Part shown: positions 4,667-29,332 of the stretch, piece by piece
Layout of the letters: each line of letters begins with the position of its first letter
Numbering within the stretch: position 1 is the stretch's first letter
IMG/VR virus record: IMGVR_UViG_3300046328_001165
Location: 1-64,000 of that record
Length of the DNA stretch: 64,000 bases
Origin: a virus
Strand: one strand, 5' to 3'
Position numbers and translations under genes: made by a program
Notes under the pieces: model-generated
What the model saw: only the letters and a program-made list of their open reading frames with translations
Told to the model about the DNA's origin: nothing
The model's database searches: none

Positions 4667-4830
4667 GTGAACTACCAGACGCCGACCGCTTAGGCGGTAC
4701 AGCGCTGGCTTCCTGATTCAACGGGGATAGCGTCCAACAAAACCGAAGTTTTACCAGATCGACTTACATCTCCTCCACAGGCAGACTCGCTAGTTCCTAA
4801 CGAGATAATCCGCAAGGCTTCATTTCTAAT
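4667..4830 (-). ncRNA. Probable omega (reRNA) guide-RNA region at the tnpB 3' end
   Basis: In this family the 3' end of tnpB plus the element's right end form the guide scaffold, and the guide is read from flanking DNA. Here a small hairpin (ACCGC-TTAG-GCGGT, 4685-4698) has the tnpB stop codon in its loop. The element then ends with GTTCAC. The predicted guide, read on the minus strand from 4666 downward, begins ATCGGATC and runs into T-residues. The 5' boundary is not visible; the coordinates are approximate. Confidence 0.35.
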
Positions 4831-5883
4831 ATTTATCGCTGCATTTACATCACGGTCATGGTGAGTACCACAATGCTTACAAGTCCATGCCCTAACATCA
4901 AGACTGAGATTATCAACTCGATTTAGGCATACATGGCAAGTCTTAGAGCTAGGGAACCATCGATCAATTTCGATGTATTGTCTTCCTTCACTCTCAGCCT
5001 TGTATTTAAGCATTGTGCAGAACATACCCCAGCCAACATCGCTAATCGCTTTGGCTAGATTATGGTTTTTGACCATGCCCTTGATGTTGAGATTTTCCAC
5101 TGCAATAACTTGGTTTTCGTTTACTATCTTGCGGGATAGCTTGTGCAGAAAATCTTCGCGACATCTGGCAATTTTGGAGTGAACTTTTGCCACTGCCAAT
5201 CTTGCCTTTTTACGGTTTTGGCTACCCTTCTTTTTCTTGGATAGCTTTTGTTGTTTACGCTTTAAGTTGCGTTGATGCTTGATGAAAAACCTAGGATTAT
5301 CAAACTTAGAAACGTCACTGGTAATCGCAAAGTGAGTTAATCCTACATCAATACCGATAGCTTTATCCACTGGTACTAATTCAGGATTAGCTTTGCCATC
5401 ATCAACCAAGACGGATACAAAGTGCTTACCGTCAGGATTGCGAGAAACAGTGACAGTTTTGATAGCTCCTTCAAAGTCGCGATGGCGCTGACAATGGACT
5501 AATCCGATCTTAGGTAGATTAATCTTGTCACCGTCAAACTTGACATTCTGAGGGTAACTAATTGACTGCCTACCATGCTTTGATTTGAATTTTGGCAACA
5601 TTGCCCGTTTATCAAAGAAGTTTTTGTAGGCAGTGGACAAGTTTAAAGCGACTACTTGCAAGCATTGAGAATATGGCTCAGACAGCCATTCATATTCTTT
5701 TTTGAGTGCAGGAAGTAAACCTTGGATATATCCTCTAGTTAGCCCTTTACCAGTATTTTTGTAGGTTTCTTGACACAGGTTTAGGGCATAGTTCCAGAAC
5801 CATCGCGCACAGCCAAAAGACTTGGCAAGCAAGGTTTCTTGCTCACTCGTGGGATAGATTCTGTATTTGTATGCCTTATACAT
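4690..5883 (-). CDS. tnpB: TnpB RNA-guided nuclease of an IS200/IS605 element
   Basis: This 397-residue protein has the TnpB layout. The N-terminal OrfB_IS605 helix-turn-helix region includes MYKAYKYRIYPTSEQE. The split RuvC domain has D179 in GIDVGLT, E263 in VENLNIKGM and the DRD motif at about 343-345 in HDRDVNAAINI. A four-cysteine zinc ribbon (CHVC and CKHC) sits between the last two. All catalytic and zinc residues are present, so the protein looks functional. It cleaves DNA next to the TAM using the element's own guide RNA, which favours retention of the element after transposon excision. The C-terminal 45 residues past the RuvC core are Ser/Gly-rich and overlap the guide-RNA region. 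Confidence 0.93.
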   Translation of the reverse strand: MYKAYKYRIYPTSEQETLLAKSFGCARWFWNYALNLCQETYKNTGKGLTRGYIQGLLPALKKEYEWLSEPYSQCLQVVALNLSTAYKNFFDKRAMLPKFKSKHGRQSISYPQNVKFDGDKINLPKIGLVHCQRHRDFEGAIKTVTVSRNPDGKHFVSVLVDDGKANPELVPVDKAIGIDVGLTHFAITSDVSKFDNPRFFIKHQRNLKRKQQKLSKKKKGSQNRKKARLAVAKVHSKIARCREDFLHKLSRKIVNENQVIAVENLNIKGMVKNHNLAKAISDVGWGMFCTMLKYKAESEGRQYIEIDRWFPSSKTCHVCLNRVDNLSLDVRAWTCKHCGTHHDRDVNAAINIRNEALRIISLGTSESACGGDVSRSGKTSVLLDAIPVESGSQRCTA

Positions 5884-5982
5884 TTATCAAGATTACCGAA
5901 TACTGATAAGCTAATTATAACATAGATAACTTCTATTGATTCGCTGTCGCTCAATTTATTTTCTGACTCACTTTCATCCTGT

Positions 5983-6009
5983 CACTCATCCTTGTAAACG
6001 GATAGAGTG
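5983..6009. repeat. Left-end subterminal hairpin of the IS
   Basis: CACTCATCC and GGATAGAGTG form a 9-bp stem with one bulged A and the loop TTGTAAAC. Its position about 20 bp inside the inferred left end is where the transposase-recognised hairpin lies in IS200/IS605 elements. Confidence 0.6.
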
Positions 6010-6030
6010 CGGGACTTCCCGTTCGCGTGA

Positions 6031-6054
6031 GTTAAAATCGGATCTTTTTTTTTT
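6031..6054. terminator. Loop and right arm of the split bidirectional terminator
   Basis: TTTAAC-type loop bases (6031-6036, read on the minus strand) are followed by ATCGGATC and ten T. This arm pairs with 4651-4666. With the IS in place the hairpin arms are about 1.4 kb apart, so termination between the primase and the leftward operon is probably impaired. Confidence 0.65.
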
Positions 6055-6057
6055 GTT

Positions 6058-6390
6058 TTATTCTTCCGCGATCGCCTCAAACCCTTCAACAACTTCATCC
6101 TCAATCTTAAAGCCTTTCAAGATATTCTCCTGATAAGCTCTCTCTTCTCGCTCCTCAAAAAATTTCTTGAAATGCTCGTTTACATACTCCTGTGTTGCCG
6201 CCAGTTTTTTGGGCTCATGGCAGTCTTTTGGGATTAAGACCCCATGCTCCATCATAAAGCTTTCGGAAATCTTCTCAGACTTCTTCGCGCCGACCTTCAC
6301 AACGAAATAACCCTTCCCAAAACCAACTATAGAGACAATCTTGGCGGGTAGTTGTACCAATCGCCCGATCGCGGGGTGCTTCTTCAGCAT
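6058..6390 (-). CDS. Hypothetical early protein (110 aa), end of leftward operon
   Basis: Unrecognised. A compact basic N-terminal half contains hydrophobic beta-like segments (LVQLPAKIVSIVGF, GYFVVKVGAKK). The C-terminal half is charged and helical (YVNEHFKKFFEEREERAYQE). The start ATG overlaps the upstream stop, so it is translationally coupled. It ends just before the T-run of the former terminator. It could be a small DNA- or protein-binding accessory; no motif supports more. Confidence 0.55.
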   Translation of the reverse strand: MLKKHPAIGRLVQLPAKIVSIVGFGKGYFVVKVGAKKSEKISESFMMEHGVLIPKDCHEPKKLAATQEYVNEHFKKFFEEREERAYQENILKGFKIEDEVVEGFEAIAEE

Positions 6391-6611
6391 ATCTTTTCCA
6401 GAGCTAAAGGGTTAACACCATCCAGCCTCAATCCTCCGACTTTTACGCTGTAGGTTAGTCCCGAATAATTGTTTTCCTTAACACCGATAACCACACCTGT
6501 GTGGTGAGAAAAACCTGCAACCTCTACATGATCGTCAACTTTAAGGCGATCGGGTTCCATAATTCTATTTGGGTGGACAGGTCGGGGTTTAAGTATTTGG
6601 CGAATATTCAT
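6384..6611 (-). CDS. Small beta-rich protein with KOW/SH3-like segment (75 aa)
   Basis: The ATG at 6611 is chosen because GAGG lies seven bases upstream; the ATG at 6617 overlaps the previous stop as ATGA and is too close to the same GAGG. Residues about 20-65 (VDDHVEVAGFSHHTGVVIGV followed by YSVKVGG) read like a small SH3/KOW-type barrel, as seen in many phage accessory proteins. Its partner is unknown. Its stop overlaps the next start. Confidence 0.55.
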   Translation of the reverse strand: MNIRQILKPRPVHPNRIMEPDRLKVDDHVEVAGFSHHTGVVIGVKENNYSGLTYSVKVGGLRLDGVNPLALEKIC

Positions 6612-6613
6612 GC

Positions 6614-7009
6614 TCATACCTCTGATTGTTTTTCTTTGTTCATCCATTTGATTGCCCGTCCCAAGACGAGGTAGTGCGGTCTACTTGAACCGAACAGCTC
6701 TCGCATCCCAGCGGGTTCAATCCTCCATGCCATCTCATAGAGCTGTTGGGCGACTCTTCGCGTGGGGTCTTCACCATCCTCGTCGTCCCTAGCCCAGTTT
6801 GGATCTAATGGCAGATCGGGATATACGCTTTCTGGGTCGATAAGCCCGTAATCGCATTCACCTCCATCAAGCCCTTGCTCTATAGCGAGTCGATCTAACT
6901 CGATGTGCGCCCAAATCCATCTTCTGTAGGCTTCAATTAGTTGATCTCTTAGTTTTGGATCGGTATCTAGCCATGGATTGTCTAACGATTTTGGTATTAC
7001 TAACGGCAT
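6614..7009 (-). CDS. Hypothetical early protein (131 aa)
   Basis: Acidic protein without a recognised family. NPWLDTDPKLRDQLIEAYRR, then WIWAHIELDRLA, resembles the Asn-Pro...Tyr-x-x-Trp segment of the neighbouring DUF4326 protein, but the CWC..P..CHAD half is missing. It might be a diverged relative. The middle is Asp/Pro-rich (YPDLPLDPNWARDDEDGEDP). It starts two bases after the DUF4326 gene's stop and ends overlapping the next gene. Confidence 0.55.
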   Translation of the reverse strand: MPLVIPKSLDNPWLDTDPKLRDQLIEAYRRWIWAHIELDRLAIEQGLDGGECDYGLIDPESVYPDLPLDPNWARDDEDGEDPTRRVAQQLYEMAWRIEPAGMRELFGSSRPHYLVLGRAIKWMNKEKQSEV

Positions 7010-7011
7010 GA

Positions 7012-7512
7012 TTAATCAAAAAACTCCGCAATGGTGGTCTCAATTCTTAGACATTCTTCCAGATAGATTTTGTGATACCAAATCAGCGCCGATCGCAGTA
7101 TATCTGCGTGGCAAGGCTCTGGAAAACACCAGCAAATGAGGTTGATATCGCGCTGAGTAACTTCATAAGAGAGGCGAGTAAACCCGCTCTCAACTTGGGC
7201 GACACTGAATTGCTTCCATCCCGAAGCGATTTTCAAGCCTGCTGCTGTAGACAGTTTCATGGGGTCTATAAAACCCCATTGGTCTATTCGGATTTTCTGG
7301 CTTTTCATGTCGAGCCAATGGTTGATGTTCGTGAAAAGCCAGTGCTTGTAAGCCCTGATCACATGATCGCGGTTAGAGCCATTCCTATCCATCTCGTAAG
7401 GGTTGCCGAGATAGGAACCCCTGTCAACCCGAAAGTCGTTAATGCCGAAAGAGAAAGCCCCTCCGCGCATTGATCTGACTGTGATTTGTTTTAATTCTGT
7501 GCTATCGTCCAT
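7012..7512 (-). CDS. DUF4326 domain protein
   Basis: The hallmarks of DUF4326 are present in order: VDRGSYLGNPYEM, then NRDHVIRAYKHWLF, and near residue 130 ICWCFPEPCHADIL, the conserved Cys-Trp-Cys-x-Pro...Cys-His-x-Asp motif. The family is common in phage genomes; its biochemical role is not established. The 166-residue length is somewhat longer than the bare domain because of an insertion around residues 70-115. It leads a run of four tightly packed leftward genes. Confidence 0.7.
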   Translation of the reverse strand: MDDSTELKQITVRSMRGGAFSFGINDFRVDRGSYLGNPYEMDRNGSNRDHVIRAYKHWLFTNINHWLDMKSQKIRIDQWGFIDPMKLSTAAGLKIASGWKQFSVAQVESGFTRLSYEVTQRDINLICWCFPEPCHADILRSALIWYHKIYLEECLRIETTIAEFFD

Positions 7513-7579
7513 AAAGAGTCACATAGTTCTAACGTTACAAAAGAGCGTGTGTTTCGATTCTCCATCTTGTTTTGATTTT

Positions 7580-7606
7580 AACCCAGCTTAGCGGCTGGGT
7601 TTTTTA
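7580..7606 (+). terminator. Intrinsic terminator hairpin, + orientation
   Basis: ACCCAGC-TTAGCG-GCTGGGT (7581-7600) is followed by five more T. The T-run is on the + strand, although all neighbouring genes are leftward, so it would stop antisense or read-through rightward transcription. On the minus strand the stem is not followed by T, but it could still mark the 3' end of the leftward transcript of the 7604-7849 gene. Confidence 0.6.
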
Positions 7607-7849
7607 TTGGAGACCTGTCAAGACGTACTGAGGGCAGAAGCCTTCGTGAAAACACTCAAGTTGCTCGCCTCGTTGATTAAAAAAGATCCACCACTGATTA
7701 ATATCAACAGCGATCGCCTCACTGTCGATATATTTTATTTTTGCGTGAAAACTGGGAAGGGGCTTCTTGGCGAGTCCAGTACCGTCCCACCAGCCAAGCG
7801 GTTTAACCGTGACACTATCCCCGACCGACAATCTCTTTCTTTTAGCCAT
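7604..7849 (-). CDS. Small basic protein, SH3-like (81 aa)
   Basis: The ATG at 7849 is preferred, with AGGAG six bases upstream; an ATG two codons earlier directly abuts that AGGAG. The sequence MAKRKRLSVGDSVTVKPLGW looks like a small beta-barrel start. The rest is aromatic (INQWWIFFNQRG) with two Cys near the end (CFHEGFC). The upstream methylase stop overlaps this gene's first ATG, so the two are coupled and it may be an accessory of the methylase. Function unknown. Confidence 0.55.
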   Translation of the reverse strand: MAKRKRLSVGDSVTVKPLGWWDGTGLAKKPLPSFHAKIKYIDSEAIAVDINQWWIFFNQRGEQLECFHEGFCPQYVLTGLQ

Positions 7850-7851
7850 TT

Positions 7852-8745
7852 TCATCTCCTGTAAAACAATAGTTCGCCAACTCTCTGCCGCTTGGTTGCG
7901 TCAGAATTCATGCAGCCCGATCGCGTTAATTCCGCGATGTCCCAGCCAGTCCAGATTTCGCGGCTCAAAGGCGTATCGCTATTGCTCGCAAATACATGAG
8001 CGCCAAGCTCGTGCAGGCGATCGGCTTCTTGCCTAAGAAGCATTTGCTGATCGCGGCTGAAGCCCTTGGTGGTGTACTTAACAAAAGAATGTTTGGCTAC
8101 TTCTATATACGGAGGATCGAGATAAACCACATCTTTTGGCTGCACGACTTTTAAGGCATCTTCAAAGGGCTGATGGACAATGATCGCTTTCTTTAGTAGG
8201 GTAGAAAGCGCCTCCAGTCTACCCTCTGTGGGGAGGGGTATCCTTTTCTGTGAGCCGAAAGGAACGTTCATCTTTCCTTTTTTATTGACCCTCCACAAGC
8301 TATTGAAGCCTGCTTGAATTAAAAAAACCATTAATGCAGATCGTTCGTATTCGCCAACACACGCATTCTCGTCGTTAAACCGCTTCCGACATTCTATAAA
8401 AAAAGCCTTGCTGTTGGCAGACTCCTTTTTGAAAGGGATAAGCTCTTTAAGTAGCTCAAGGGGATCGTTCTGAATACAGAGCCACAGATGGATCAAATCG
8501 GGGTTACTGTCACTGATAAAAATCTTGCGATCGCCTTTAAATCCATCCGCAAAATGCAAAAACGCGCTGCCAGTTCCCGCAAAAGGATCGTGAAAGTTGC
8601 CAACCCCTTTTTTAAAGTCGATAAATCTGGGTATTGGCTCGTTCGTAAATCTTGCAGGAAAGAACTGAGCAATCTTTGGCATCAACTCGAATTTTCTTCC
8701 GACCCACTTAGTTGGAGGCTCTAGCCCCGTTATTATTTTTGGCAT
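7852..8745 (-). CDS. dam: D12-class N6-adenine DNA methyltransferase (Dam-like)
   Basis: The 297-residue protein has the D12/Dam motif order: KWVGRK at 13-18 (AdoMet-side motif X), DPFAGTGS at 53-60 (motif I), ISDSNPDLI (motif II/III region) and the catalytic DPPY at 210-213. The start at 8745 is kept although it overlaps the upstream gene by 38 bp, because the next Met would lose motif X. Dam enzymes methylate adenine, usually in GATC. That would cover every GATC and GCGATCGC site here and could protect phage DNA from host enzymes. The exact target sequence is not visible from sequence. No good ribosome binding site is seen. Confidence 0.85.
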   Translation of the reverse strand: MPKIITGLEPPTKWVGRKFELMPKIAQFFPARFTNEPIPRFIDFKKGVGNFHDPFAGTGSAFLHFADGFKGDRKIFISDSNPDLIHLWLCIQNDPLELLKELIPFKKESANSKAFFIECRKRFNDENACVGEYERSALMVFLIQAGFNSLWRVNKKGKMNVPFGSQKRIPLPTEGRLEALSTLLKKAIIVHQPFEDALKVVQPKDVVYLDPPYIEVAKHSFVKYTTKGFSRDQQMLLRQEADRLHELGAHVFASNSDTPLSREIWTGWDIAELTRSGCMNSDATKRQRVGELLFYRR

Positions 8746-13157: not shown

Positions 13158-13216
13158 ACATATTTAGGTAGCGATCGCGTGTCAGATGGGTGTACGCGAT
13201 CGCTACCTAAATATGT
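13158..13216. promoter_or_regulatory. 23-bp perfect inverted repeat covering the portal start codon
   Basis: Arms 13158-13180 and 13194-13216 are exact reverse complements, separated by 13 bp. Each arm contains a HIP1 octamer. The probable portal start ATG (13213-13215) is inside the right arm, and an upstream in-frame ATG (13186) is in the loop. As RNA the stem would hide the start; as DNA it could be an operator. Confidence 0.75.
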
Positions 13217-14853
13217 CTGAAACAGATTACACCCAAGCTTATATACGCAACGATGGAGCCATTATTGATGCGCTCTACAAAGCTGAGTACGAGGACGACA
13301 TTCAAGCCCAAAATGAGTTGGGTATTGACAGTGCAGGCGATCGGCGAAGACTGAGCAACAGGGCGCTAGAGGAGCTGTCTAGGGATTGGCTTGGCAAAAA
13401 GATTTGTTCGATATTCCCTGACGAAGCGACGAGGAAGTGGACAGAAGTAGCGATACCAAAGGACAAGGATCGCAAAATCGCAACAGCTTTTGAAGAATAC
13501 GAAGAAAGACTAGGAGCGAAATACAAGTTCAACAAAGCTGATTGGCTAGCAAACCTCTATGGCGGCTCAGCCATTTTGATTAACCTTGACGATGGACTGC
13601 CCCCCGAAAAACCAGTTGACACGACCAAGATTAAGACCATTAAGGGTATTTACGATCTTGACAGAGAAGACATCCGCCCGTATTTCCCAAACCTTGACGC
13701 TCCATCGGATGATCCTGAATTCTACCAAATCTTTTATTCTCAAGAGTCAAAATCAAAGCTGGAAAAATTGGGGGGAGATTACAAAGCCTTCAATCTTGTT
13801 CACAAATCAAGGGTTGTCCGCTTCGATGGTTCTCGTTTACCTCCAAGACTGCTGGCATCAACAGGCGGGTGGGGCGATCCACTGATTGTTTCGGCATTAA
13901 GGGAGATTGCTCGCTATACAAAAATATCCGACGCAATGGCGGAGATGATTCAGGATCACACGATTCTGCTTCATAAAATGAAGAATCTACAAAACCTGAT
14001 CAAGCAAAATATTGCCCAAGAAAAGGCGGCGGCTGGGGGGTCTACACCATCTGTTAACGGAGTCCCCAAGGTTTTGACTGTGCTCTCGGAACAGTTCCGA
14101 GCGATGAAGGTGCAGATAAGAAAAATGGGCGCGGTCTCCGTGGACTCGGAAGATGATCTTACCTACTTAGTCCGAAACTACCAAGGCTTATCGGATATAA
14201 AAGCGGGTTTTCAGGAGGATCTTGTTGCGGCTCTCGACATACCTTACACTATGATTTTTGGGCGTGGACCAAAGGGGCTAGCAGCAGGTGGTACGGGTGA
14301 GACGGAAGATCAGGTTTGGTCAAAGACCGTAGCTGTGTATCAGGAGAAGAACTACCGCTATCGCAAATTGGATATGCTTTACAAGTATATTTGGCTTGCT
14401 CAAGACGGTCCTACTAAAGGCAAAATCCCTGAAGGCTGGTCTTACACTTTTAAGCCTCTTTACGTTGACAGCCGCAAAGACGCGGTGGCAAATGAAACCG
14501 CTCACACAAATATGCTTATTGCTTTACAAACCCAGTCTGGGGCGATCACCAAAGACGAGGTTAGAGCCAGTCTTTATGGTGGTGGCGATTATTCGTACAT
14601 GGTGTCTCTTGATAACGAGGCTTGGGAAAAACAAAAGGAGGAAGAGGAATTAGCTAAACAGCGCCAAGAGGAGCTGGAGGCTCTGCAAGCCTACGGTGGT
14701 GACGAGACTGGAGGCTATTTTGGTGGGTCAGACCCTGCTCAGGGTGGTGCTACTAAGCAGGATTCCCTTTCGGCTATAGATATTGCATCTAACCTGTTTA
14801 AGGATCTTGATTCCCCGTTTGCTAAGATGTGGATTAGCGATCCCCTGAAGTAG
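13213..14853 (+). CDS. Phage portal protein, DUF1073 family
   Basis: This protein of about 546 residues matches the DUF1073 portal family. Features are VHKSRVVRFDG, then GGWGDP and the long helical segment with MIQDHTILLHKMKNLQNLI. A VRNYQGLSDIKAGFQEDL region and the PYTMIFGRGPKGLAAGG loop follow, and then FKPLYVDSRKDAVANETAH. Twelve copies normally form the DNA entry ring at one capsid vertex. The start is uncertain: ATG 13186 adds nine residues, but neither ATG has a clear ribosome binding site and both fall in the inverted repeat. The C-terminal 60 residues are Gln/Glu/Gly-rich and lack the His-x-Thr motifs of Acb1-type nucleases sometimes joined to this family. Confidence 0.85.
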   Translation: MSETDYTQAYIRNDGAIIDALYKAEYEDDIQAQNELGIDSAGDRRRLSNRALEELSRDWLGKKICSIFPDEATRKWTEVAIPKDKDRKIATAFEEYEERLGAKYKFNKADWLANLYGGSAILINLDDGLPPEKPVDTTKIKTIKGIYDLDREDIRPYFPNLDAPSDDPEFYQIFYSQESKSKLEKLGGDYKAFNLVHKSRVVRFDGSRLPPRLLASTGGWGDPLIVSALREIARYTKISDAMAEMIQDHTILLHKMKNLQNLIKQNIAQEKAAAGGSTPSVNGVPKVLTVLSEQFRAMKVQIRKMGAVSVDSEDDLTYLVRNYQGLSDIKAGFQEDLVAALDIPYTMIFGRGPKGLAAGGTGETEDQVWSKTVAVYQEKNYRYRKLDMLYKYIWLAQDGPTKGKIPEGWSYTFKPLYVDSRKDAVANETAHTNMLIALQTQSGAITKDEVRASLYGGGDYSYMVSLDNEAWEKQKEEEELAKQRQEELEALQAYGGDETGGYFGGSDPAQGGATKQDSLSAIDIASNLFKDLDSPFAKMWISDPLK

Positions 14854-14865
14854 GCGGAGGAACAG

Positions 14866-15285
14866 ATGAAATTGCAAGTACTTGAGAAGCTAGGGTATAG
14901 AATCGACGCGATTGCTCCTCACCAGATCGATATTATGTTTGACGACGCAATGCAGGTACTCCGCGATCGCATTGCCGAAGAGAATCCTGAAGACCTGCAA
15001 AGGTTTGACGATCAGGTTGCCGACATAGAAGAGGAGGACTTACGCGATCGGATCTCCGAGATGGCGCAGGAAAACCTAGCCCCACAAATTAGGAAATTTA
15101 GCCAAGTTATTGGGCAAAAACTAAAGCAGTGGCAAGAGGAGGGGCTATCGATGGCAGAGGCTCGTGAACGTATCGACTCAATCTACAATCTTGATGAGTA
15201 CAATGACAAGGGCTTTGCGGGTGGATTGGCGGAATGGTTAGCGATCGCGGCACTTACTGGTCAAGATCTTGGCGATCAGGGCTAA
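14866..15285 (+). CDS. Hypothetical helical protein (139 aa) after portal
   Basis: GGAGGAACAG directly before ATG 14866 is a strong ribosome binding site, 12 bp after the portal stop, so it is clearly co-expressed with the portal. The product is acidic and helical (FDDAMQVLRDRIAEENPEDL) with several coiled-coil-like stretches. A portal-associated or head-internal role is suggested by position only. The 3' end overlaps tail-to-tail with the leftward gene ending at 15254. Confidence 0.6.
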   Translation: MKLQVLEKLGYRIDAIAPHQIDIMFDDAMQVLRDRIAEENPEDLQRFDDQVADIEEEDLRDRISEMAQENLAPQIRKFSQVIGQKLKQWQEEGLSMAEARERIDSIYNLDEYNDKGFAGGLAEWLAIAALTGQDLGDQG

Positions 15286-15865
15286 TTTCACTCGCCGACA
15301 CTCCTGATTCTACCGACCAGATCTGCTCACTAACTTTCAATCCTTTTGGGAATATCATTTCAGGGTTCTCGGTAAAGCTATCCTCCTTAATCAAGACGCA
15401 ATTCGTCGGCTGAATAGTTAGGCGATCATTATCTAGCTGAATAAATTTAAACTCCTTTGCCTGCTGAGGATAGGCTGTGAATCCGTCATCCAATGGACAA
15501 ACGGTGAACAGGTAATTCCCCTCAAGGGCGAGATCGGAATTGATGGCGGCTTTACATTTCAAACCAGCGAGGTAAGTGTATTCAATTGCTGACCAATTTT
15601 GACTGTAGCAGTCCCACCTCTGGGCATCTTTGGCTTCCCAAACCTCTTGCTGGGGATTCTTGCTGAAAGCGATCGCCTGCGGAGGGAGGTTTCGGAAGAT
15701 TGCGCCACATTCGAGCAAAACATGAATTCCCCATACCCTGCCAGCGACACTATTAAGCCCGAACCAGACGGCAGGGATAAAACCAATCGGCTCTTTGTGT
15801 ATGAATTTTGAGTCAACCCAGACATATAGGTGTCTGGGGATATTGCCAATTGCGATCGACTTCAT
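15254..15865 (-). CDS. Conserved phage protein of unknown function (203 aa)
   Basis: The start ATG at 15865 (MKSIAIGNIPRHLYVWV) is chosen because the reading upstream runs into the EAL gene. Features include GFIPAVWFGLNSVAGRVWG, LECGAIFRNLPPQAIAF, RWDCYSQNWSAIEYTYL and DGFTAYPQQAKEFKFI, then LTIQPTNCVL. I recognise this set as a family that recurs in unrelated phages, often near fibre or lysis genes, but its role is unknown to me. It is the last gene of the leftward fibre/EAL operon and overlaps a rightward gene by 32 bp without a terminator. Confidence 0.65.
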   Translation of the reverse strand: MKSIAIGNIPRHLYVWVDSKFIHKEPIGFIPAVWFGLNSVAGRVWGIHVLLECGAIFRNLPPQAIAFSKNPQQEVWEAKDAQRWDCYSQNWSAIEYTYLAGLKCKAAINSDLALEGNYLFTVCPLDDGFTAYPQQAKEFKFIQLDNDRLTIQPTNCVLIKEDSFTENPEMIFPKGLKVSEQIWSVESGVSASEISPDRQDLDQ

Positions 15866-15881
15866 AATATTTAGCTGGTTT

Positions 15882-16664
15882 TTAGCTTGAGATTTTTTTG
15901 TGGCTCGACATTTTGGTGTTGAGTACTTCAATTGGCATAGGTCTACCCCAAAGCCAGCCTTGCCCGTATTGAGCGCCGAGCTGAAGGAATGCGTCTCGCT
16001 GCCAGCCATTCTCTATACCCTCAACGATTACTCCGATTTCACCCGTCGGGCAATTTTTCATGCTAGAAATTATCGATTGCGCGAACCACCGATAATTAGT
16101 ATCGAGAATGCTGTTGGCAAAACTAATATCCAGCTTAACCATCACGTAATCGTTGCTGGGAAACATTTTGAGTACTTGGGCAACTTGTAGGAAACTGGAT
16201 TCCGCGATCCCAAAGTCGTCAACAAATGCGCCAACACCCGTCTCTCTTGTTCTTATAAAATAAGGCTTAATCACCTCATAATCACAGAGCGATCGCTCTG
16301 TGATTTCCAAGAAGAAAGTAGGACGATCTCCGACTAGGACAGAAGCCTCCAGAGCTTTCCAGAAACGGTTTTGGGCTAAAGATGAAGGGGAGATATTAAC
16401 GGAGACAAAATCGCCCTCCAAGAATTCGCGGTCAACAGATGATTGCCTTACAACGAACTCGCAGATCTCAACCATGATTGACGGGTCGGCTTCGCACTGG
16501 GGTATGAAGTCACAGGGAGATCTCAGTACATCTTCGGGGTGATACCAGCGAATCAAAGCCTCGTGACCCGCAATCCTGTCGGTCGCTAACTCGATTATCG
16601 GATGATAATGAAGCTTAAATTCCCCCTTCTCAATCCCTCTTAGGACCTCACGTTTTAGATTCAC
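15882..16664 (-). CDS. EAL-domain protein, predicted cyclic-di-GMP phosphodiesterase
   Basis: The 260-residue protein is essentially one EAL domain. E35 lies in HEALIRW, N90 in VNISP, E120 in EITER, D149-D150 in VDDFG, K177 in VKLDIS, E215 in VEGIEN and Q235 in GQGWLWGRP. All residues that normally hold the metals and substrate are kept. The loop after DDFG reads IAESS instead of the usual TGYSS, which may alter dimer signalling. It would hydrolyse c-di-GMP to pGpG in the host cytoplasm. It starts with GTG overlapping the stop of the membrane GAF-like gene (GTGA), so the two are made together. A phage copy could change host surface, biofilm or motility state. Confidence 0.9.
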   Translation of the reverse strand: MNLKREVLRGIEKGEFKLHYHPIIELATDRIAGHEALIRWYHPEDVLRSPCDFIPQCEADPSIMVEICEFVVRQSSVDREFLEGDFVSVNISPSSLAQNRFWKALEASVLVGDRPTFFLEITERSLCDYEVIKPYFIRTRETGVGAFVDDFGIAESSFLQVAQVLKMFPSNDYVMVKLDISFANSILDTNYRWFAQSIISSMKNCPTGEIGVIVEGIENGWQRDAFLQLGAQYGQGWLWGRPMPIEVLNTKMSSHKKISS

Positions 16665-17380
16665 TTTATTAACCCCTCAACAGGCGATCGCTGCAACAGC
16701 AGGTAGTACATGGTGCTACAAACCTGCTTTATTCTCTGCCTCAAATCGATAGCAGAAAGATAGTCCACATGGGCTGTGTAATTAAAATGCAGGGCTAGAA
16801 TCCAAGCCGTGCTGTTTTGCTCGCCAATTTTGTAGTAGATAACGTATGCAACCCCGTAGTTGTTTAAAAATCCCTGATACTGATTTGCGTCAGAGATTTG
16901 CTCTGTCTCTCGATTTATAAACGAGTCGTCGTTGAATCTTTGCAGGATTTTTTTGACGCAATCTGCTTGATTATCCTTTGCTGAGAAGGTAATCTTCGCG
17001 ATTCCATTGTGAATAACTTCTTGCGCGACAGCAAGCATAGTACCCCTTTTGGAATCAACTTCCATCAACACAGCTCGATCTGCCCCCGTTTCACCTCGAA
17101 CTGTCTGCAATCCATTAGAGATTGCTTCTAGGTTCTCTTGAGGTCGTTTTAGCCTCGTAAGCCAAACGTACTGCCTTGGTTTAACATGGAGATCGTATAT
17201 TTTCCATGCTAGTAGTCCCGCAGAACTACAAAGCACGGTAAATATTGTCCCCCAAGATACTGAGGACGGAATATCCCAAGCTGGCGGAGGCTGCAACTGC
17301 TCAATCCTTGGCTGAGTTGTTTGTGCGATCGCCGAGTCAAAGGGGAAATCCTTGAACTCTATAACTTCTTCCCAGTTCAT
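16661..17380 (-). CDS. Membrane-anchored GAF-like sensor protein (239 aa)
   Basis: The N-terminal 40 residues are polar. A single hydrophobic segment (GTIFTVLCSSAGLLAWKIY, residues about 44-62) follows. After a short basic linker comes a domain of about 150 residues with LQTVRGETGADRAVLMEVDS and GTMLAVAQEVI, then YGVAYVIYYKIGEQ, the pattern of a GAF fold. GAF domains bind small ligands or chromophores; no bilin-binding Cys context is clear here. The stop overlaps the EAL gene's GTG, so it probably senses a signal and positions or regulates the EAL enzyme at the membrane. The GAF assignment is by pattern only. Confidence 0.55.
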   Translation of the reverse strand: MNWEEVIEFKDFPFDSAIAQTTQPRIEQLQPPPAWDIPSSVSWGTIFTVLCSSAGLLAWKIYDLHVKPRQYVWLTRLKRPQENLEAISNGLQTVRGETGADRAVLMEVDSKRGTMLAVAQEVIHNGIAKITFSAKDNQADCVKKILQRFNDDSFINRETEQISDANQYQGFLNNYGVAYVIYYKIGEQNSTAWILALHFNYTAHVDYLSAIDLRQRIKQVCSTMYYLLLQRSPVEGLIK

Positions 17381-17419
17381 AATTCCAAAGCAACCTTGCT
17401 TTCGTAGACACTCATCAGT

Positions 17420-17839
17420 TTAACCACCGAACAGCTTTGAAATGAGTTTGACCCCAGATTTGGCGAGGCTAGGCTTCCCAGTAAGGTCTACAAGGCTGGC
17501 TACTAGGCTAGGCGTTTGAAGAACCTGATCAAGTGTTGAGTGCGACGTTTTGGCGATCTCGGTGGCTTGGGCTAAGGTAATATTGGTAATCGCCTGCGCT
17601 TTGCCGCGTATAAATGGCAAGTCGGAGTACAGGTTCCCATGCTTATTGATTTCGTTCCTTGCATCGAGGAGCCCCTGAGCGATCGCGCCAAGGAATAAAA
17701 AGCCCGATGGAATTGTGAGTAAACCGACAGCCGCCATTGCGGGGTATGCGAGGGATAGAGTTGCGATCGTCTTGACTAAGATTGTCAAAAATTCCACGCT
17801 GAAGAAAAAGGGGTGGGGCTGACGTTCCAGTGTTTTCAT
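17420..17839 (-). CDS. Small membrane protein with two hydrophobic segments (holin candidate)
   Basis: The 139 residues begin with a short polar N-terminus. Two adjacent hydrophobic helices follow (LTILVKTIATLSLAYPAMAA and TIPSGFLFLGAIAQGLL, residues about 17-56), then a soluble Lys/Thr-containing tail. Size and topology fit a class II holin or another phage membrane protein, and it sits next to fibre genes, where lysis genes are frequent. No endolysin is visible nearby. The start overlaps the upstream stop as ATGA. Confidence 0.5.
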   Translation of the reverse strand: MKTLERQPHPFFFSVEFLTILVKTIATLSLAYPAMAAVGLLTIPSGFLFLGAIAQGLLDARNEINKHGNLYSDLPFIRGKAQAITNITLAQATEIAKTSHSTLDQVLQTPSLVASLVDLTGKPSLAKSGVKLISKLFGG

Positions 17840-18300
17840 AGTAAGTGGAACTCCTCTGCATTGGCAGTAAAAGTAGTGATCTGTTCGGGCGTTAGGAAGT
17901 TTTTTAAGATGTCAAAACTGCCAGAGCCGTTGATATTGGAGAATGCCATCTTATTAAAAGGCTTATTCCAAAAACTGCCCTCTAAAATGGCACAAGCCGT
18001 AGTTAGCGCGGCATTTGCGCTAACAGGGTTGAGCGCTAGCATTATGACTGGAATGTAAACCTGATGATAAAGGGTGTTGGCGGGACTAGAATCAGCCAGT
18101 CCGTACAGCTTCTCTCTGAAATTCAGCGGCTGTGGCTTCGGCGTAAAACTGGCTTCTAGTTCCGCGATCTTGGCGTTTATTTCTGCTTCAGTAAAAGACG
18201 CTAATCCGTTTTGCCACTGGATATTTTGGTAAGTTGCTTCTCCCAAAATCGCCCAACCAGTAGCGCCTAAAGCTCCTAATGCTTGCTCCAGTGTAGTCAT
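17836..18300 (-). CDS. Hypothetical fibre-operon protein (154 aa)
   Basis: Unrecognised. The first half (WAILGEATYQNIQWQNGLAS followed by FTEAEINAKIAELEASF) resembles tail-fibre assembly or chaperone proteins that contact a fibre tip. The second half is hydrophobic, with YIPVIMLALNPVSANAALTT, which may be a buried helix or membrane segment. ATGA overlaps join it to the genes on both sides. Expression is therefore coupled within the fibre operon. Confidence 0.5.
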   Translation of the reverse strand: MTTLEQALGALGATGWAILGEATYQNIQWQNGLASFTEAEINAKIAELEASFTPKPQPLNFREKLYGLADSSPANTLYHQVYIPVIMLALNPVSANAALTTACAILEGSFWNKPFNKMAFSNINGSGSFDILKNFLTPEQITTFTANAEEFHLL

Positions 18301-18791
18301 GATGCAACCTCCATAACAGTAATAAAGCAGGCGGATCGAATCGTTGCATCCACTGAATCACGATTCATATATAAAAAATTGTCGGGTGGATCTATAAATA
18401 CGGCAGTGGCTTTATATGTGCGTATATCTGTATTTGCAGCGTTATCAATGTATCGATAACTGGCTTTGATGGATTCGATAAAATTAGCGTCATAATCAGG
18501 TCTTGTCCGAAGCCCAGTATCAAAACCAAGCAAGGAGCCTACATTACCGACAGGGCTAGAGTCTTTAAAAAGCCCAAAAAGAGGCGGGTTATTAAAGCCA
18601 GAAGCGTAATATCCACTAAAATCAACGTTAATCAGCAATTCACTTGCGGCACTTACTGGCGTGTAGGCAACCTCTAAGCCATTGATAGCGGTCTGCATAT
18701 TTTGGATAAAGGTTTGCGATGTGGCGGTAGCAAGCCTGAAAGACTCAAAACCTAAAAGCTTACCGCCATTAGGCAAAGCAATGTGTGTCAT
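18297..18791 (-). CDS. Fibre-operon beta-rich protein (164 aa), possible receptor-binding tip
   Basis: Unrecognised. It is Gly/Asn/Phe-rich with beta-like segments (GKLLGFESFRLATATSQTF, LLINVDFSGYYASGFNNPPL), as in fibre head domains. It lies downstream of the modular fibre genes, where receptor-binding and tip subunits are often placed. The start overlaps the upstream stop (TAATG) and the stop overlaps the next start (ATGA). Function is inferred from composition and position. Confidence 0.5.
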   Translation of the reverse strand: MTHIALPNGGKLLGFESFRLATATSQTFIQNMQTAINGLEVAYTPVSAASELLINVDFSGYYASGFNNPPLFGLFKDSSPVGNVGSLLGFDTGLRTRPDYDANFIESIKASYRYIDNAANTDIRTYKATAVFIDPPDNFLYMNRDSVDATIRSACFITVMEVAS

Positions 18792-19219
18792 TATCGCACC
18801 TCAATAATAACAAGTGTTGTTCCTGTAGCGTCATAGGAGACGCTGTTAAGAGTATCGTTATTAGGCGCTTGCCAAGAGTATGTCATGCCTGCGGCAATTA
18901 GCTCCCCCTGGACAGTTCCAGCAGCAATACCTGAATTTGCGATTGAGAGGCTTCTCGCGCCAGCGGCGACAGTCCCAGAAGAGGATTCCACAGTTACGTT
19001 CGCATCTCTGACCGTTGTGGGTAAGGAGGTTATGCCGACATTATTGATTACAATGTCACCACTAAGAGCGACCCCGATCGCCTGCTGAAAGACAGCACGT
19101 TTGTACGATAGCTCAAAGTAAAGCTCTGGATCTGTGCCTATTTCTATATTTGTCAGCTTTGCGTCAATGGCAGCTAATTGTGCCGTTAATGCGTCTGATA
19201 CTGTTGGAAATTTTGCCAT
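18791..19219 (-). CDS. Fibre-operon hypothetical protein (142 aa)
   Basis: The start is set at ATG 19219 (MAKFPTVSDALTAQLAAIDA). A longer version from 19297 adds 26 residues that look like a signal peptide but derive from two HIP1 sites in the gap; this alternative cannot be excluded. The protein has a short helical N-terminus, a central segment ending VALSGDIVINNVGITSLPTT, and a beta-rich C-terminal half with many Ser/Thr/Val. This suggests a trimeric fibre or accessory subunit. Confidence 0.5.
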   Translation of the reverse strand: MAKFPTVSDALTAQLAAIDAKLTNIEIGTDPELYFELSYKRAVFQQAIGVALSGDIVINNVGITSLPTTVRDANVTVESSSGTVAAGARSLSIANSGIAAGTVQGELIAAGMTYSWQAPNNDTLNSVSYDATGTTLVIIEVR

Positions 19220-19306
19220 AGCGATCGCACAAGTAAATGTCGTAATACTAGCGATCGCCACCACGGAGAGTTTAGAAAGGGCGTATTTGGCGATCAAAGC
19301 AGACGT

Positions 19307-19762
19307 TTAAGCAGGAATGGCGATCGGCATATTATTGGTCTCTGCGGAATTTTTAAGTCGATTTCTCTGCCCTTCACTCAGCAACCCAACAATGCTATCC
19401 ACCCTGAATTGCAGATTCCGAATGTCATTTTCGGTCAACGTCTGAGAAAGCGCCGAACGGCACAGGGAATATATTCCTTCAGCCTGATCTGCTACTGTTA
19501 AAGCGAGTTCAGCGCCGCCATAAACAGCATTTCTATTGTCGAAAATAAGCTCTGCATACAAGCTATCTAAATCGGTTAAAAATTGCTGATAACTTGGCTG
19601 CGATTCGCTTGGGATATCTTCGATTTCCACCGTTTTTAAACTAAATATTTCTTCAGCCTTTTTTGCTTTACTATTTTTGTCAAGTAAACACAAATTTGCA
19701 TCAGACTTGTTTGAGAATTGGATTATTTCTGATTGATTAAAGACTTCATACAGTGTTCTCAT
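19307..19762 (-). CDS. Fibre-operon hypothetical protein (151 aa)
   Basis: ATG 19762 is chosen because it follows the stop of the fibre gene by four bases; a longer frame would start inside that gene. The product is acidic and helical (MRTLYEVFNQSEIIQFSNKS, YQQFLTDLDSLYAELIF), with a C-terminal helical hairpin (VDSIVGLLSEGQRNRLKNSA). It resembles small fibre-assembly chaperones in size and place but has no recognised motif. Confidence 0.5.
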   Translation of the reverse strand: MRTLYEVFNQSEIIQFSNKSDANLCLLDKNSKAKKAEEIFSLKTVEIEDIPSESQPSYQQFLTDLDSLYAELIFDNRNAVYGGAELALTVADQAEGIYSLCRSALSQTLTENDIRNLQFRVDSIVGLLSEGQRNRLKNSAETNNMPIAIPA

Positions 19763-19766
19763 AGTT

Positions 19767-20876
19767 TTATTTGTTGATATATATTCTGTGAACGCTATCG
19801 TCAAGAAAAACAGGGCGTATGTTTGAGCCTACGAGCTTGGCAAGCCTATAGGCTAAACCAGTATTTCTTCCACTAGCTACAGGTATATTGGTGTCGATGC
19901 TGCCAACAAATACACCACCAATAAAGAAATCTGCTCTAGTACCCGACCTATTAACTTCTGTTCTGTATTTGCGCCAATTTTCTGCGCCTTGCGTGACAGG
20001 CACAGTTGTTACTATAGTTGTTCTGATTGAATTAGAAGAACAAACTAATCTCCAAAAGTTGCCGCTAACAGCCTCATCGTACTCAAAGTAAACGCCATCC
20101 TGTACCACTACCCCCGCAGATTGATCCAGATATCCAAACTGAAGTCTGAACCTCTCTGTGGCTGTGGACAGATTTTGGATTGCTAGGGAAGTTTCATGGA
20201 CAAACAGCTTATTGCTGCCGAAAATAATACCGCCGCCTGTGCTGTTTTTCCACATGGTTACGATACCTGTCGCGGTAGAACCTGTGGTCATAAACACACT
20301 GCCTACCCTATTAACATTGGCTAAAGACAAGGTGGCACTTGCGCCAGCACCGTTTTGTGCGGTTGACCAGCTATCTTGACCCGCCGTAGAAAAACCTAGC
20401 CAGTCCTCTATTTGCTCAAGCATTTTCGAGTTGTCAGGTCTGGATATTTTCTGTACCCAAACACCTTGATCGGTTGTGTTATCTACCAAAGTGAATCGAA
20501 TTTCGTTGTAAGGCTCTAACCTTGCAATATCAGTGTTAGCACCATTCTGAACAACCACAATTTCTGTGTTATCGCTTAAAACGGTGATTATTTTACCGAT
20601 TGGCAGGGTAGTAGCATCGGGGAAGCTTATAGCAAAAAATTCGGCAGTGCCTCGAACAACAACAGAGCTGGTGGTAGCAGAAAGGGCGATCGCGCCAGAG
20701 GCTGTGCTTGTGACAACCAAACTTTCTGGCGCGAAGGATAGGAAGGTGTTATCTATCTTGCCAGCCGAATTAGTTGCAACGATCTTTCCGCTATCGCCAG
20801 CCCCTAAAGAGCTGGCGATAGCGGTGATCAGTTGCAACTGATTCCCAATGTAGGTAAGTAGCTGATTTAAAGCCAT
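19767..20876 (-). CDS. Modular tail fibre protein with jelly-roll-like C-terminus (369 aa)
   Basis: The start is at ATG 20876 (MALNQLLTYIGNQLQL); an earlier in-frame Met lies in the neighbour. Residues 1-50 match the start of the upstream fibre gene closely (LTYIGN.LQL, GDSGKI, SGKIDNTF), so they are a shared attachment module. Next comes a segment with FPDATTLPIGKIITVLSDNT, typical of fibre shaft/collar repeats. The last about 200 residues form a beta-rich domain (MWKNSTGGGIIFGSNKLFV, FRLQFGYLDQ, NWRKYRTEVNRSGTRADFFI) like carbohydrate-binding jelly rolls. It likely binds a host surface glycan. Confidence 0.65.
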   Translation of the reverse strand: MALNQLLTYIGNQLQLITAIASSLGAGDSGKIVATNSAGKIDNTFLSFAPESLVVTSTASGAIALSATTSSVVVRGTAEFFAISFPDATTLPIGKIITVLSDNTEIVVVQNGANTDIARLEPYNEIRFTLVDNTTDQGVWVQKISRPDNSKMLEQIEDWLGFSTAGQDSWSTAQNGAGASATLSLANVNRVGSVFMTTGSTATGIVTMWKNSTGGGIIFGSNKLFVHETSLAIQNLSTATERFRLQFGYLDQSAGVVVQDGVYFEYDEAVSGNFWRLVCSSNSIRTTIVTTVPVTQGAENWRKYRTEVNRSGTRADFFIGGVFVGSIDTNIPVASGRNTGLAYRLAKLVGSNIRPVFLDDSVHRIYINK

Positions 20877-20880
20877 TTGA

Positions 20881-21393
20881 TTAGGCGACGTATACGGCTT
20901 GAGTGGGTTGAAATGCGATCGCTGTAGTCGATACGGCAAAGCCTAAGCCTTGGATAACGTTACCACTGACAAAAGCGGGAACGTTAGGGTCAACCGATCC
21001 TGCGGGGGCTCCCAAGTAATAGTATTCCCCAACATCTAGCCCAGTCAGGGCTGTATTGGAGCCGCTACGATAAACTGTCGCATTTGCTGCGCTAGCAACA
21101 GCACCCAACACGAAGCCATTGGCGGGGCGACCATTATCTGCATCTGCTTTGCGAACGTTAGGGGTTCCTGCGTTGTCGTAAACATTAACAAAATCGCCGC
21201 CCGACAGAGCTTCCGATGCGAGGACAGTCTGAGTATCGGGAGCTAAACCGACGGGCATGAAAGTTAGGTCAAGTCTACCTGAAGCATCAGTTTGAGGGAT
21301 TTTGTTACCATCTGCCGCACCCGAACTAGAAACAATTGAAGTTACCAGTTGAAGGGCATTTCCGATGTAAGTGAGAAATTGATTAGCTGCCAT
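20881..21393 (-). CDS. Tail fibre adaptor with DUF2190-like C-terminus (170 aa)
   Basis: It begins MAANQFLTYIGNALQLVTSI, paralogous to the next fibre gene over the first 50 residues. The remainder (ALSGGDFVNVYDNAGTPNVR, RPANGFVLGAVASAANATVY, GEYYYLGAPAGSV) follows the pattern of short beta-rich capsid/fibre decoration domains. The start overlaps the upstream stop (TAATG) with GGAG about 13 bp upstream. It probably links the fibre base to the distal fibre or decorates it. Confidence 0.6.
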   Translation of the reverse strand: MAANQFLTYIGNALQLVTSIVSSSGAADGNKIPQTDASGRLDLTFMPVGLAPDTQTVLASEALSGGDFVNVYDNAGTPNVRKADADNGRPANGFVLGAVASAANATVYRSGSNTALTGLDVGEYYYLGAPAGSVDPNVPAFVSGNVIQGLGFAVSTTAIAFQPTQAVYVA

Positions 21394-22262
21394 TAGTTTA
21401 TTTGAACTCCTTGAGAGATTTTTAGGTTGATAGTCGTCGGTGCTTCGGCATTGCCGATGGGCACAATGTATCCAGAAACAGGGACGATCGTAGTGATATC
21501 CCCGCTAGAGCCAAGGTACAGCGGTGCGCCCCTTGCCCAATTCCAACTAGGGTCTGTCACCAATCCGCTAAGCACTACGGTGGGTGCAACGCCGCCAGAA
21601 ACAGCCTGAAAAGTTAAGCCCAAAACTGTTGCGTCACTAGAACTGTCGGCATATACAAGTTGATCTAAGTTATTAAGCTTTATCAATTTAAGGGCGCTTA
21701 GCGCCGCTCCTGCCAAATACGATTGGGTTGTGGATTGGGATTTTAGGGAGGGCTTGACTACCCAGCTAGCTCCAAAGTTGGAGACAACAACATCCCCTTT
21801 GTCTCCATCGGTAACACTTCCTTCTATACCTCGTTCACCCCGCTCACCTTGCTCACCCTGTTCGCCTTTGACTAGGGTAAGAACCGAAGCCAGAACCTCA
21901 ACGGGTACGCTAGAAATTCCTATGTCAAGGATTATGTCGTAACCCGTGTTTATAGAGTCGTTGCTAGGAGTTGATGAGGGGTTTACATAAGCGATCGCCA
22001 AAGTAAAACTCTTAACACCGAAAGAGCTGTCATCGAGGAACAACTGAAGAGGGTAGGGACGTGCGGAGACCAAAAAAGCGGATCTGTCTGAGGAGATTTG
22101 GAATCTAAAAACTCTGGGGTCTGCGGTGGGTTCAGGGATAAAGATATCGCCAAACATTGACAGCTTAATTTCTTGAAGCCCCAAGATATCGTAATTGGCA
22201 TCAAGTCTAATGCCAATCGTATAGCTATCGCCCTGCCGAAAACTGAAAGTGGTCGCCGCCAT
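21393..22262 (-). CDS. Tail fibre protein with collagen-like Gly-x-y segment (289 aa)
   Basis: The ATG at 22262 (MAATTFSFRQGDSYTIGI) is preferred over an earlier hydrophobic extension. The N-terminal about 130 residues form a beta domain. Residues about 132-147 are GEQGEQGERGERGIEG, five collagen-like triplets that trimerise fibres. The C-terminal part (SYLAGAALSALKLIKLNNLD, LYLGSSGDITTIVPVSGYIV) matches common phage fibre domains. It is the first gene of the leftward operon that runs to 15254. It is divergent from the head-gene operon starting at 22374. Confidence 0.65.
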   Translation of the reverse strand: MAATTFSFRQGDSYTIGIRLDANYDILGLQEIKLSMFGDIFIPEPTADPRVFRFQISSDRSAFLVSARPYPLQLFLDDSSFGVKSFTLAIAYVNPSSTPSNDSINTGYDIILDIGISSVPVEVLASVLTLVKGEQGEQGERGERGIEGSVTDGDKGDVVVSNFGASWVVKPSLKSQSTTQSYLAGAALSALKLIKLNNLDQLVYADSSSDATVLGLTFQAVSGGVAPTVVLSGLVTDPSWNWARGAPLYLGSSGDITTIVPVSGYIVPIGNAEAPTTINLKISQGVQIN

Positions 22263-22373
22263 CTGGCTCAAAAGGAAAGAATAGATCCAAAATAGCAATT
22301 CGCGTTTATAGCGCTGAGGCTCTCACTGTATTGGCGATCGCCTACTATTAGCCGAAGTATTCCGATCTGAATC
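22263..22373. promoter_or_regulatory. Divergent control region between fibre operon and head operon
   Basis: This is a 111-bp gap with one HIP1 octamer and copy 3 of the 14-bp motif. It must hold promoters for both directions or be read through; no hexamer pair is convincing. The rightward gene has no Shine-Dalgarno sequence; the motif abuts its start. Confidence 0.35.
22359..22372 (+). repeat. Copy 3 of ATTCCGATCTGAAT, abutting a start codon
   Basis: Exact copy, followed by C and then ATG of the 22374 gene. The same arrangement occurs before the 54550 gene. Confidence 0.85.
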
Positions 22374-27457: not shown

Positions 27458-29332
27458 CTAATGCTTGAATAAGCTTTCAGGAAACTCAGTCCGATCGCAC
27501 CAACGAGAAACTAGATCCAACTGAGTTGGGGTCTGCACGAGGTAGTCACATCGATAGCCGAGGGATTTTGCTGCAACTACGACCTCGCCGCTGAAGGCGA
27601 AAGGGTCTAAGAAAGACTCGTTAGCATCCCCGAAAGAGGTCAGGATATTATGTAATGGTTCTAATGCCATCTTGGGAAGGGCTGATCGTAGTGGTAAAGG
27701 GGTGTCCTCTTGGGTAGTAAACAGCAGCAATTCCTCGTAGTCTTGGTGTATGAGTGTGCGGCTTGAAGAGGCGATCGCGAGTCTGGGTTTTTCGTCGTGA
27801 GAGTATATACCGCCGTCCAAACCCCGTAAATACAATCGATTGGCACTAGATACCTTACACTCCATTTCATTGATCACCGCCAAGGAGTATCTGTGCGGCA
27901 ATATCAGGGCGAACACTCCATCCTCAGCAAGCATCCTGTATATGTAGTCTTCGTTCTGGAATAGGTCTTCCATTCCGCTACTGCCGAGGCGTGAGAGTAT
28001 AAGTCCGTACTGCTTTGGCTCGTGAAAAGCGTAGTCGCGCAAGGATGAAACGATCCCCTTGGGTTGGTACTGCTCTTCAATCCAAACACGCTTCTCGGTG
28101 GCTAACTTAGAAGCCGCTGGTGTAGCCTTCACCTGCACGGGGTTGGGCTCAGAACTTTTTGGGGGTGGGGCGATTGTTAGGACTTCCTGCTGAATGTGTG
28201 TTGTACCCTCAATCTTTCTAAAGTTGTCGTACTTTTGATCGATGTAAGCGTAGCGATCAATTACGGTGCGAGCAGCTTCAGCGACATCGACGAGCCTATA
28301 AAATTTGGCGCTACGAGTTTCTATCTGCCTGATCAGCTCAGCGCGAAATTCTTCCTTGAGATTCGCGACCTTCTCTTCAGCCTTGCCTGCCACTACTTCG
28401 TGGTATTTGTGAATAAAGGGTAGATCCTGAGATTCATAGGTTTTGTTCACCTCGCAAATTAGCTGCGGCAGCAGTGTTTTTGCTAGTTGCGATTCGTCGT
28501 TAGCCGCGCACTGGCTGGCAATCTCTCCACGAATATATTCCCATCGAAGCCAGTCGCCCCAGCGATCAGGGTAGGAAGTGGATCTATTTAGCAGGTCCTT
28601 AGCTTCTTTGATAGTGTTTGCGAGCTTAGTTCGTTGATTTGCTGTGATCAGCGTGTGGTGGCGTAAGTAGAATTCTGCAATCCAAAGCTGATCCTCTTTA
28701 TCAAAATACATAAACTCAACCACGCGATCGGTGGTTCTGAACAGTCCATTTTTAGGTTCGGTCAGAACTTCAACGTCTTGCAGATCCTTGTTAGGCGAGT
28801 TTGCGGCAACATAGTCTACGAACTTACAAGCTTGGATGAATCTGGAAATCCGAGACGAGTTATACCCCACCTTTTTGGCATAATCGGGCTGGGGCATCCC
28901 CGTCTCAACGCAGGTATAATAAGCCAGCCGAGCCAGCCTCCAGTTCTCCATTCTGCGCTGCGTGTTCAGGGTTGAAAGCTTGATTAGAGCGTCCTCTTCA
29001 GTCAACTCTTCATCCACGATCGCGGGAATGTAGTCTTGCTCAATCTCCCTAAGAACCCTCGTGAGCATCCACATAGCGACAAAGCGATGGTTGCCTTCAA
29101 CAGCCTGTAAGCGATCACCTACAGGTCTTAGCAACATAGGCTTATTAGGGTTGTAGCCCTGAACCCGTAAAAGCTCGATTAGCGCTTCAACTTGAGCTTC
29201 TTCAACTTTTACTGGGTAGCCTAATATCTCACTGTATTTTTGCGAAACAGGGGCTGGATTCTGCGGATGGGTAACAATTAGGTCGATAGGTGCTTTGACC
29301 AAGCTACCAGAGGGGAGTGGCTCGTAGGGCAT
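27458..29332 (-). CDS. ParB-type N-terminal domain fused to a degenerate DNA methyltransferase-like domain (624 aa)
   Basis: Residues about 10-110 are a ParB/sulfiredoxin-like domain: NPNKPMLLRPVGDRLQAVEG followed by NHRFVAM (the G-x-H-R box), then helical partner-binding segments including YAKKVGYNSSRISRFIQA, a helix-turn-helix as in ParB. The last 200 residues follow the layout of N4/N6 methylases that end with SFLDPFAFSGEVVVAAKSLG (compare the FxGxG AdoMet motif). However, the catalytic SPPY/DPPY position reads YGLILSRLGSS and the FxGxG glycines are partly lost. Hence it is probably a DNA-binding protein with an inactive or altered methylase fold. It sits in a leftward insert with an Xre regulator, between head genes. 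Confidence 0.65.
   Translation of the reverse strand: MPYEPLPSGSLVKAPIDLIVTHPQNPAPVSQKYSEILGYPVKVEEAQVEALIELLRVQGYNPNKPMLLRPVGDRLQAVEGNHRFVAMWMLTRVLREIEQDYIPAIVDEELTEEDALIKLSTLNTQRRMENWRLARLAYYTCVETGMPQPDYAKKVGYNSSRISRFIQACKFVDYVAANSPNKDLQDVEVLTEPKNGLFRTTDRVVEFMYFDKEDQLWIAEFYLRHHTLITANQRTKLANTIKEAKDLLNRSTSYPDRWGDWLRWEYIRGEIASQCAANDESQLAKTLLPQLICEVNKTYESQDLPFIHKYHEVVAGKAEEKVANLKEEFRAELIRQIETRSAKFYRLVDVAEAARTVIDRYAYIDQKYDNFRKIEGTTHIQQEVLTIAPPPKSSEPNPVQVKATPAASKLATEKRVWIEEQYQPKGIVSSLRDYAFHEPKQYGLILSRLGSSGMEDLFQNEDYIYRMLAEDGVFALILPHRYSLAVINEMECKVSSANRLYLRGLDGGIYSHDEKPRLAIASSSRTLIHQDYEELLLFTTQEDTPLPLRSALPKMALEPLHNILTSFGDANESFLDPFAFSGEVVVAAKSLGYRCDYLVQTPTQLDLVSRWCDRTEFPESLFKH

Follow-up and report, generated by a model that had tools for sequence, protein, structure and literature searches.

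Phosphodiesterases of the EAL family (PF00563; MorA, RocR and PdeL are examples) have a conserved loop 6, in which the motif DFGTGYSS lies at a fixed spacing from the catalytic lysine, and the importance of this loop for catalysis is established knowledge for the family. Bacteria commonly carry EAL genes with sensor domains, LapD and FimX are c-di-GMP receptors with degenerate EAL domains, and known receptor-type EALs usually lack some of the catalytic residues. In published work, loop 6 has been found to matter for EAL catalysis (PMC5845226) and has been handled as a signature region of EALs (PMC12900916). The closest known systems include two from phages: Citrobacter phage Chris1 encodes a single protein annotated as GGDEF/EAL (UOL51131) near its tail-fibre and invertase genes, and Dap1 of Pseudomonas phages acts on host c-di-GMP turnover by inhibiting the host phosphodiesterase DipA, as described in PMC12846349. 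On the host side, E. coli PdeL guards against phage N4 by lowering c-di-GMP, on which N4 infection depends (PMC8669472), and the cyanobacterium Anabaena PCC 7120 cannot do without c-di-GMP (PMC13075795).

The locus analysed here lies in a window of 64,000 nucleotides with which an IMG/VR virus record of 92,683 bp begins (IMGVR_UViG_3300046328_001165). Copies of the HIP1 sequence GCGATCGC number 93 in the window, where 0.7 would be expected, which makes a cyanobacterial host very likely. Among isolates, the closest portals belong to cyanophages, S-CBS4 and Aphanizomenon phage CL131 among them. We hold at roughly even confidence that two adjacent genes of this virus form a small mobile cyanophage cassette encoding a membrane-tethered, signal-regulated c-di-GMP phosphodiesterase.

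The pair belongs to a minus-strand block (15254–22298) set among plus-strand genes, with the portal region on one side and further head genes on the other. The portal gene (13186–14853, plus strand) and the next head-region gene (together 13186–15285; phrog_146, 9e-67) are convergent with the block and mark its left edge, and pieces of a head protein follow from 22374 on the plus strand. In order, the block encodes fibre-like proteins, a TM protein of 139 residues, the membrane protein of 239 residues, the EAL protein and, last, a protein of PHROG 3704. Upstream of the pair, 17420–22298 (minus strand) is a fibre-like operon of eight ORFs, one with collagen-like repeats, and the pair sits at its downstream end. 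Gaps of 39 and 13 bp, together with gene overlaps, point to a single transcript and suggest that the pair is co-transcribed with the fibre operon rather than expressed from a promoter and terminator of its own. The first-pass annotation had placed the pair in a tail-fibre operon rather than in a cluster of host genes, and this placement inside the phage structural region holds. No Rfam family was found between 12000 and 23000, and hence no known c-di-GMP riboswitch in that interval.

The EAL gene (15882–16664, minus strand, GTG start) encodes a protein of 260 residues that is probably a c-di-GMP phosphodiesterase. Pfam EAL matches it over the full domain with 119.5 bits against a curated cut-off of 31.3 (E 1.9e-34), and its best PDB match is the EAL domain of MorA (3.1e-21). 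All ten signature positions, comprising the metal, substrate and catalytic residues including the general base, are present (E35, N90, E120, E123, D149, D150, K177, E215, E218 and Q235; read together, ENEEDDKEEQ), as in the characterised enzymes. The same ten are invariant in the EAL proteins of two other virus contigs, L110 and L113, at mutual identities of only 31–38%; given that 52 of 226 alignment columns (23%) are invariant, this would happen by chance with a probability of about 2e-7, which is good evidence of selection on catalysis.

Where the protein departs from the described enzymes is loop 6 (16134–16220, minus strand; DDFGIAESSFLQVAQVLKMFPSNDYVMVK). Its motif reads DDFGIAESSF instead of the usual DDFGTGYSSL, and an expansion of seven residues before K177 places the catalytic lysine 29 residues from the DD pair instead of 22. 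Among 33 other EAL proteins aligned, spacings other than 22 occur only in L110 (29), L113 (27) and, mildly, L118 (24). When bacterial EALs are included in the tree, the window protein, L110 and L113 form one clade (support 100/96), into which none but phage sequences fall among those compared, and in which L110 is the nearest relative of the window protein (38% identity); we did not find this clade described in the literature searched, and it appears to be new. A wider, seven-member cyanophage EAL clade seen in a quick tree was dropped when the addition of bacterial EALs split four members from these three; only the three-member clade is claimed, because the EALs of L034–L040, L047 and L027 then separate. 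The first-pass statement that the protein keeps all metal- and substrate-binding residues is thus right as regards the signature residues and overlooked the remodelled loop. Since the conserved loop and its lysine spacing are lacking, we class the protein as a variant member of the EAL domain family rather than as a proven phosphodiesterase; activity is likely, though the loop keeps it from being assured.

A loop unlike that of nearly all other EALs compared also invites the reading that the protein is a c-di-GMP receptor, an altered binder that would report c-di-GMP status to its membrane partner, itself a plausible output. We consider this unlikely, given that all three members of the clade keep the catalytic residues, general base and metal ligands among them, and that the loss of such residues seen in degenerate receptors does not extend to the window protein. 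It is also conceivable that the loop shifts specificity towards a cyclic dinucleotide of a host defence system of the CBASS type: the gene is of phage origin, the remodelled loop is close to the substrate in a clade with only phage sequences among those examined, and a membrane location could bring the protein near membrane effectors. However, the neighbourhood has no link to defence, and the genes go with fibres and not with early anti-defence genes, so that we regard such a counter-defence role as very improbable.

The partner of the putative phosphodiesterase is a membrane-anchored protein of 239 residues (16661–17380, minus strand, ATG start), with a predicted TM segment at residues 40–58 (17207–17263) followed by a soluble domain of about 170 residues. 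The hydropathy of the segment, borderline at 1.42 in the window protein, is more distinct in two homologues (1.73 and 1.77), and lysine and arginine are more numerous after it than before it, so that the C-terminal domain is predicted to be cytoplasmic; the single membrane segment first proposed is therefore upheld as likely. Homologues at 36% identity occur in L004–L006 and L015, all four with one and the same sequence, and one at 38% occurs in L113. Searches of Pfam, PHROG and solved structures returned no relative of the partner, single-sequence scans of viral contigs returned no match for either protein of the pair, and a scan of genome contigs, phages and plasmids returned none for the partner, the genome contigs having been scanned with exact short patterns that miss distant relatives.

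The soluble domain had been called GAF-like, a label that finds no backing in sequence comparison. Pfam GAF does not match even at an E-value of 10, a PDB profile search does not support the assignment, and hhalign against 31 GAF_2 domains gave a probability of 0.3%, a comparison of low sensitivity with only three divergent homologues. Hints of a GAF-like fold come from the order of predicted elements and from a low-confidence AlphaFold2 model of the full-length protein (pLDDT 38), for which the top Foldseek matches are largely GAF- or PAS-like (E 4e-3 or worse); those of a second, trimmed model are not. We treat it as a sensor-like or scaffold domain of no known family, possibly GAF-like.

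The two ORFs overlap by four nucleotides (GTGA, 16661–16664, minus strand), the TGA of the partner with the GTG of the EAL gene, as the first-pass annotation had noted, and this arrangement suggests translational coupling. The same annotation had proposed looking for the pair in other cyanophages, and it recurs in L113, a 51.5-kb record with 148 ORFs (27 HIP1 sites in 12.8 kb), where fibre-like genes are followed by a TM homologue (7328–7996) and an EAL gene (7989–8696) that overlap by eight nucleotides. Compared with the 92.7-kb window record, only 2 of these 148 ORFs match strongly, and both are the pair genes (4e-40 and 1e-28), with one further weak match at 9e-6. The two phages being otherwise unlike, the pair seems to move or to be kept as a unit, and its recurrence argues against chance acquisition.

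The nearest relatives give a different picture. Three of them keep the TM protein, its gene lying 60 bp from a convergent gene, and show no EAL within fragments of 26.6, 15.2 and 5.0 kb; the portals of L004–L006 are 78% identical to that of the window, and in L005, L006 and L015 the TM homologue likewise ends a fibre-like series. A first impression from these relatives that the pair is unconserved was overturned by L113. As regards a mobile cassette, then, the whole pair is present in L113, whereas L005 and L006 keep the TM partner without EAL, and the pair is evidently not obligatory. A third arrangement is found in L110, where a TM protein is followed by a PAS-EAL protein, convergent with fibre-like genes and not in their operon; L110 and L113 have in common a C5 methylase and fibre-like genes.

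A gene for a large serine recombinase closes the L113 record, so that this phage is probably temperate, and with sensor-domain EAL genes being common in bacteria, the pair could be a passenger or lysogenic-conversion gene set acquired from a cyanobacterial genome and serving the host cell rather than infection. This we find quite unlikely. No resolvase or tyrosine-integrase family was found in the window record, the overlapping pair is kept in two unrelated phages, and no close host homologue of the window EAL turned up: the best match in anything searched is about 36–38% identical, with genome contigs scanned by exact short patterns.

That a phage carries an EAL gene is in itself no novelty: Chris1 has one, and a single pattern scan confirmed an EAL in 170 IMG/VR contigs, a figure that may take in host flanks of prophages as well as phage genes. 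What we did not find in the open-access papers searched, a limited sample of the literature, is a phage-encoded membrane protein paired with a separate EAL protein, and to that extent the earlier remark that such a pair is undescribed stands. The Chris1 protein, about 26% identical to the window EAL, has the usual spacing in loop 6 and is not accompanied by a separate TM partner. The characterised EAL phosphodiesterases likewise differ from the window EAL, which is small, stands as a protein of its own and is coupled to a TM partner. Many EAL matches in INPHARED were set aside as bacterial contigs filed as phage (Salmonella and Acinetobacter records, for example), and a match labelled AS-1 is a 1.7-kb piece of 72% GC, probably contamination.

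Outside the clade, HIP1-rich virus contigs carry EALs in the vicinity of genes for tail proteins, peptidases or fibres, and a membrane segment and a small domain of sensor-like type often accompany them in other arrangements. A TM-EAL fusion follows the tape-measure gene in L034–L040 (359 residues at 5641–6720 in L037), a standalone EAL follows a tip-attachment gene in L047, with no TM partner in this 5.3-kb contig, and in L027 (IMGVR_UViG_2914543266_000001, 5341–6714) an ethylene-receptor-like ETR1_N domain (2.5e-11) is fused to PAS and EAL. None of these, nor L110, has the TM partner family of the window, and the loop-6 expansion is found among them only in L110. The L027 record is HIP1-rich, and its EAL gene comes after a peptidase M15 gene with a few genes between them; it is at the very end of the contig and may therefore be flanking host DNA. 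The L037-type phage appears to be large, with HIP1 sites and seemingly nucleotide-metabolism genes, and its TM-EAL gene is found in several metagenome contigs.

If the pair is indeed a membrane-tethered phosphodiesterase cassette, its TM segment would hold at the membrane a cytoplasmic domain with a probable role in sensing or scaffolding, and the EAL protein, translated together with it, would be recruited into a complex there or be regulated there. Both would be made with the fibres, presumably late in infection, and the enzyme would then lower c-di-GMP near the membrane, with changes in the surface features that this nucleotide controls, such as exopolysaccharide, pili and aggregation, and plausibly in adsorption. 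The likeliest benefit would be that fewer adsorptions are wasted and that the dying cell or its debris is superinfected less. Since c-di-GMP is essential in Anabaena, lowering it would be expected to have strong effects. Dap1 would differ in direction, since it inhibits a host phosphodiesterase rather than supplying one. For the cassette we count the overlapping pair that ends a fibre series in both the window and L113, the retention of signature residues in a well-supported clade with a common loop-6 expansion, the TM or sensor domains around EALs in L110, L037 and L027, and the precedent of PdeL against N4. Against it we count the remodelling of the loop throughout the clade, the three (fragmentary) relatives that have the TM partner but no EAL, the failure to find a sensing fold, the L110 genes convergent with fibres and the L047 EAL without a TM partner. 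A bolder version, in which loop 6 opens new substrates to this phage-specific clade or serves as a switch under the partner's control, making the pair a stage-timed, membrane-sensor-activated hydrolase that shuts the host's own receptor display or disarms cyclic-dinucleotide defence, seems to us quite unlikely.

In the form that we prefer, a membrane-tethered phosphodiesterase, the pair suggests that viruses of cyanobacteria repeatedly make use of c-di-GMP control, in a compact two-gene module that is open to direct assay, and the clade probes how far loop 6 can change with catalysis kept.

Next after EAL in the operon is the PHROG 3704 gene (15254–15868, minus strand, about 204 residues; phrog_3704, 1.5e-24), whose product occurs in many cyanophages and shares 67% identity with its counterparts in Pseudanabaena phages Pam2 and PA-SR01. 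In cyanophages it is labelled variously ferredoxin, PurM or hypothetical; because the window protein has no Pfam match, the first two names look unfounded. IMG/VR relatives of this protein (L007–L012) have zero HIP1 sites. Elsewhere in the window, an ORF at 4690–5883 resembles by eye a TnpB of the IS200/IS605 type inside the phage genome, and a protein of 624 residues (27458–29332) has weak ParB/KorB similarity (phrog_3264, 6e-5) that could hint at plasmid-like maintenance.
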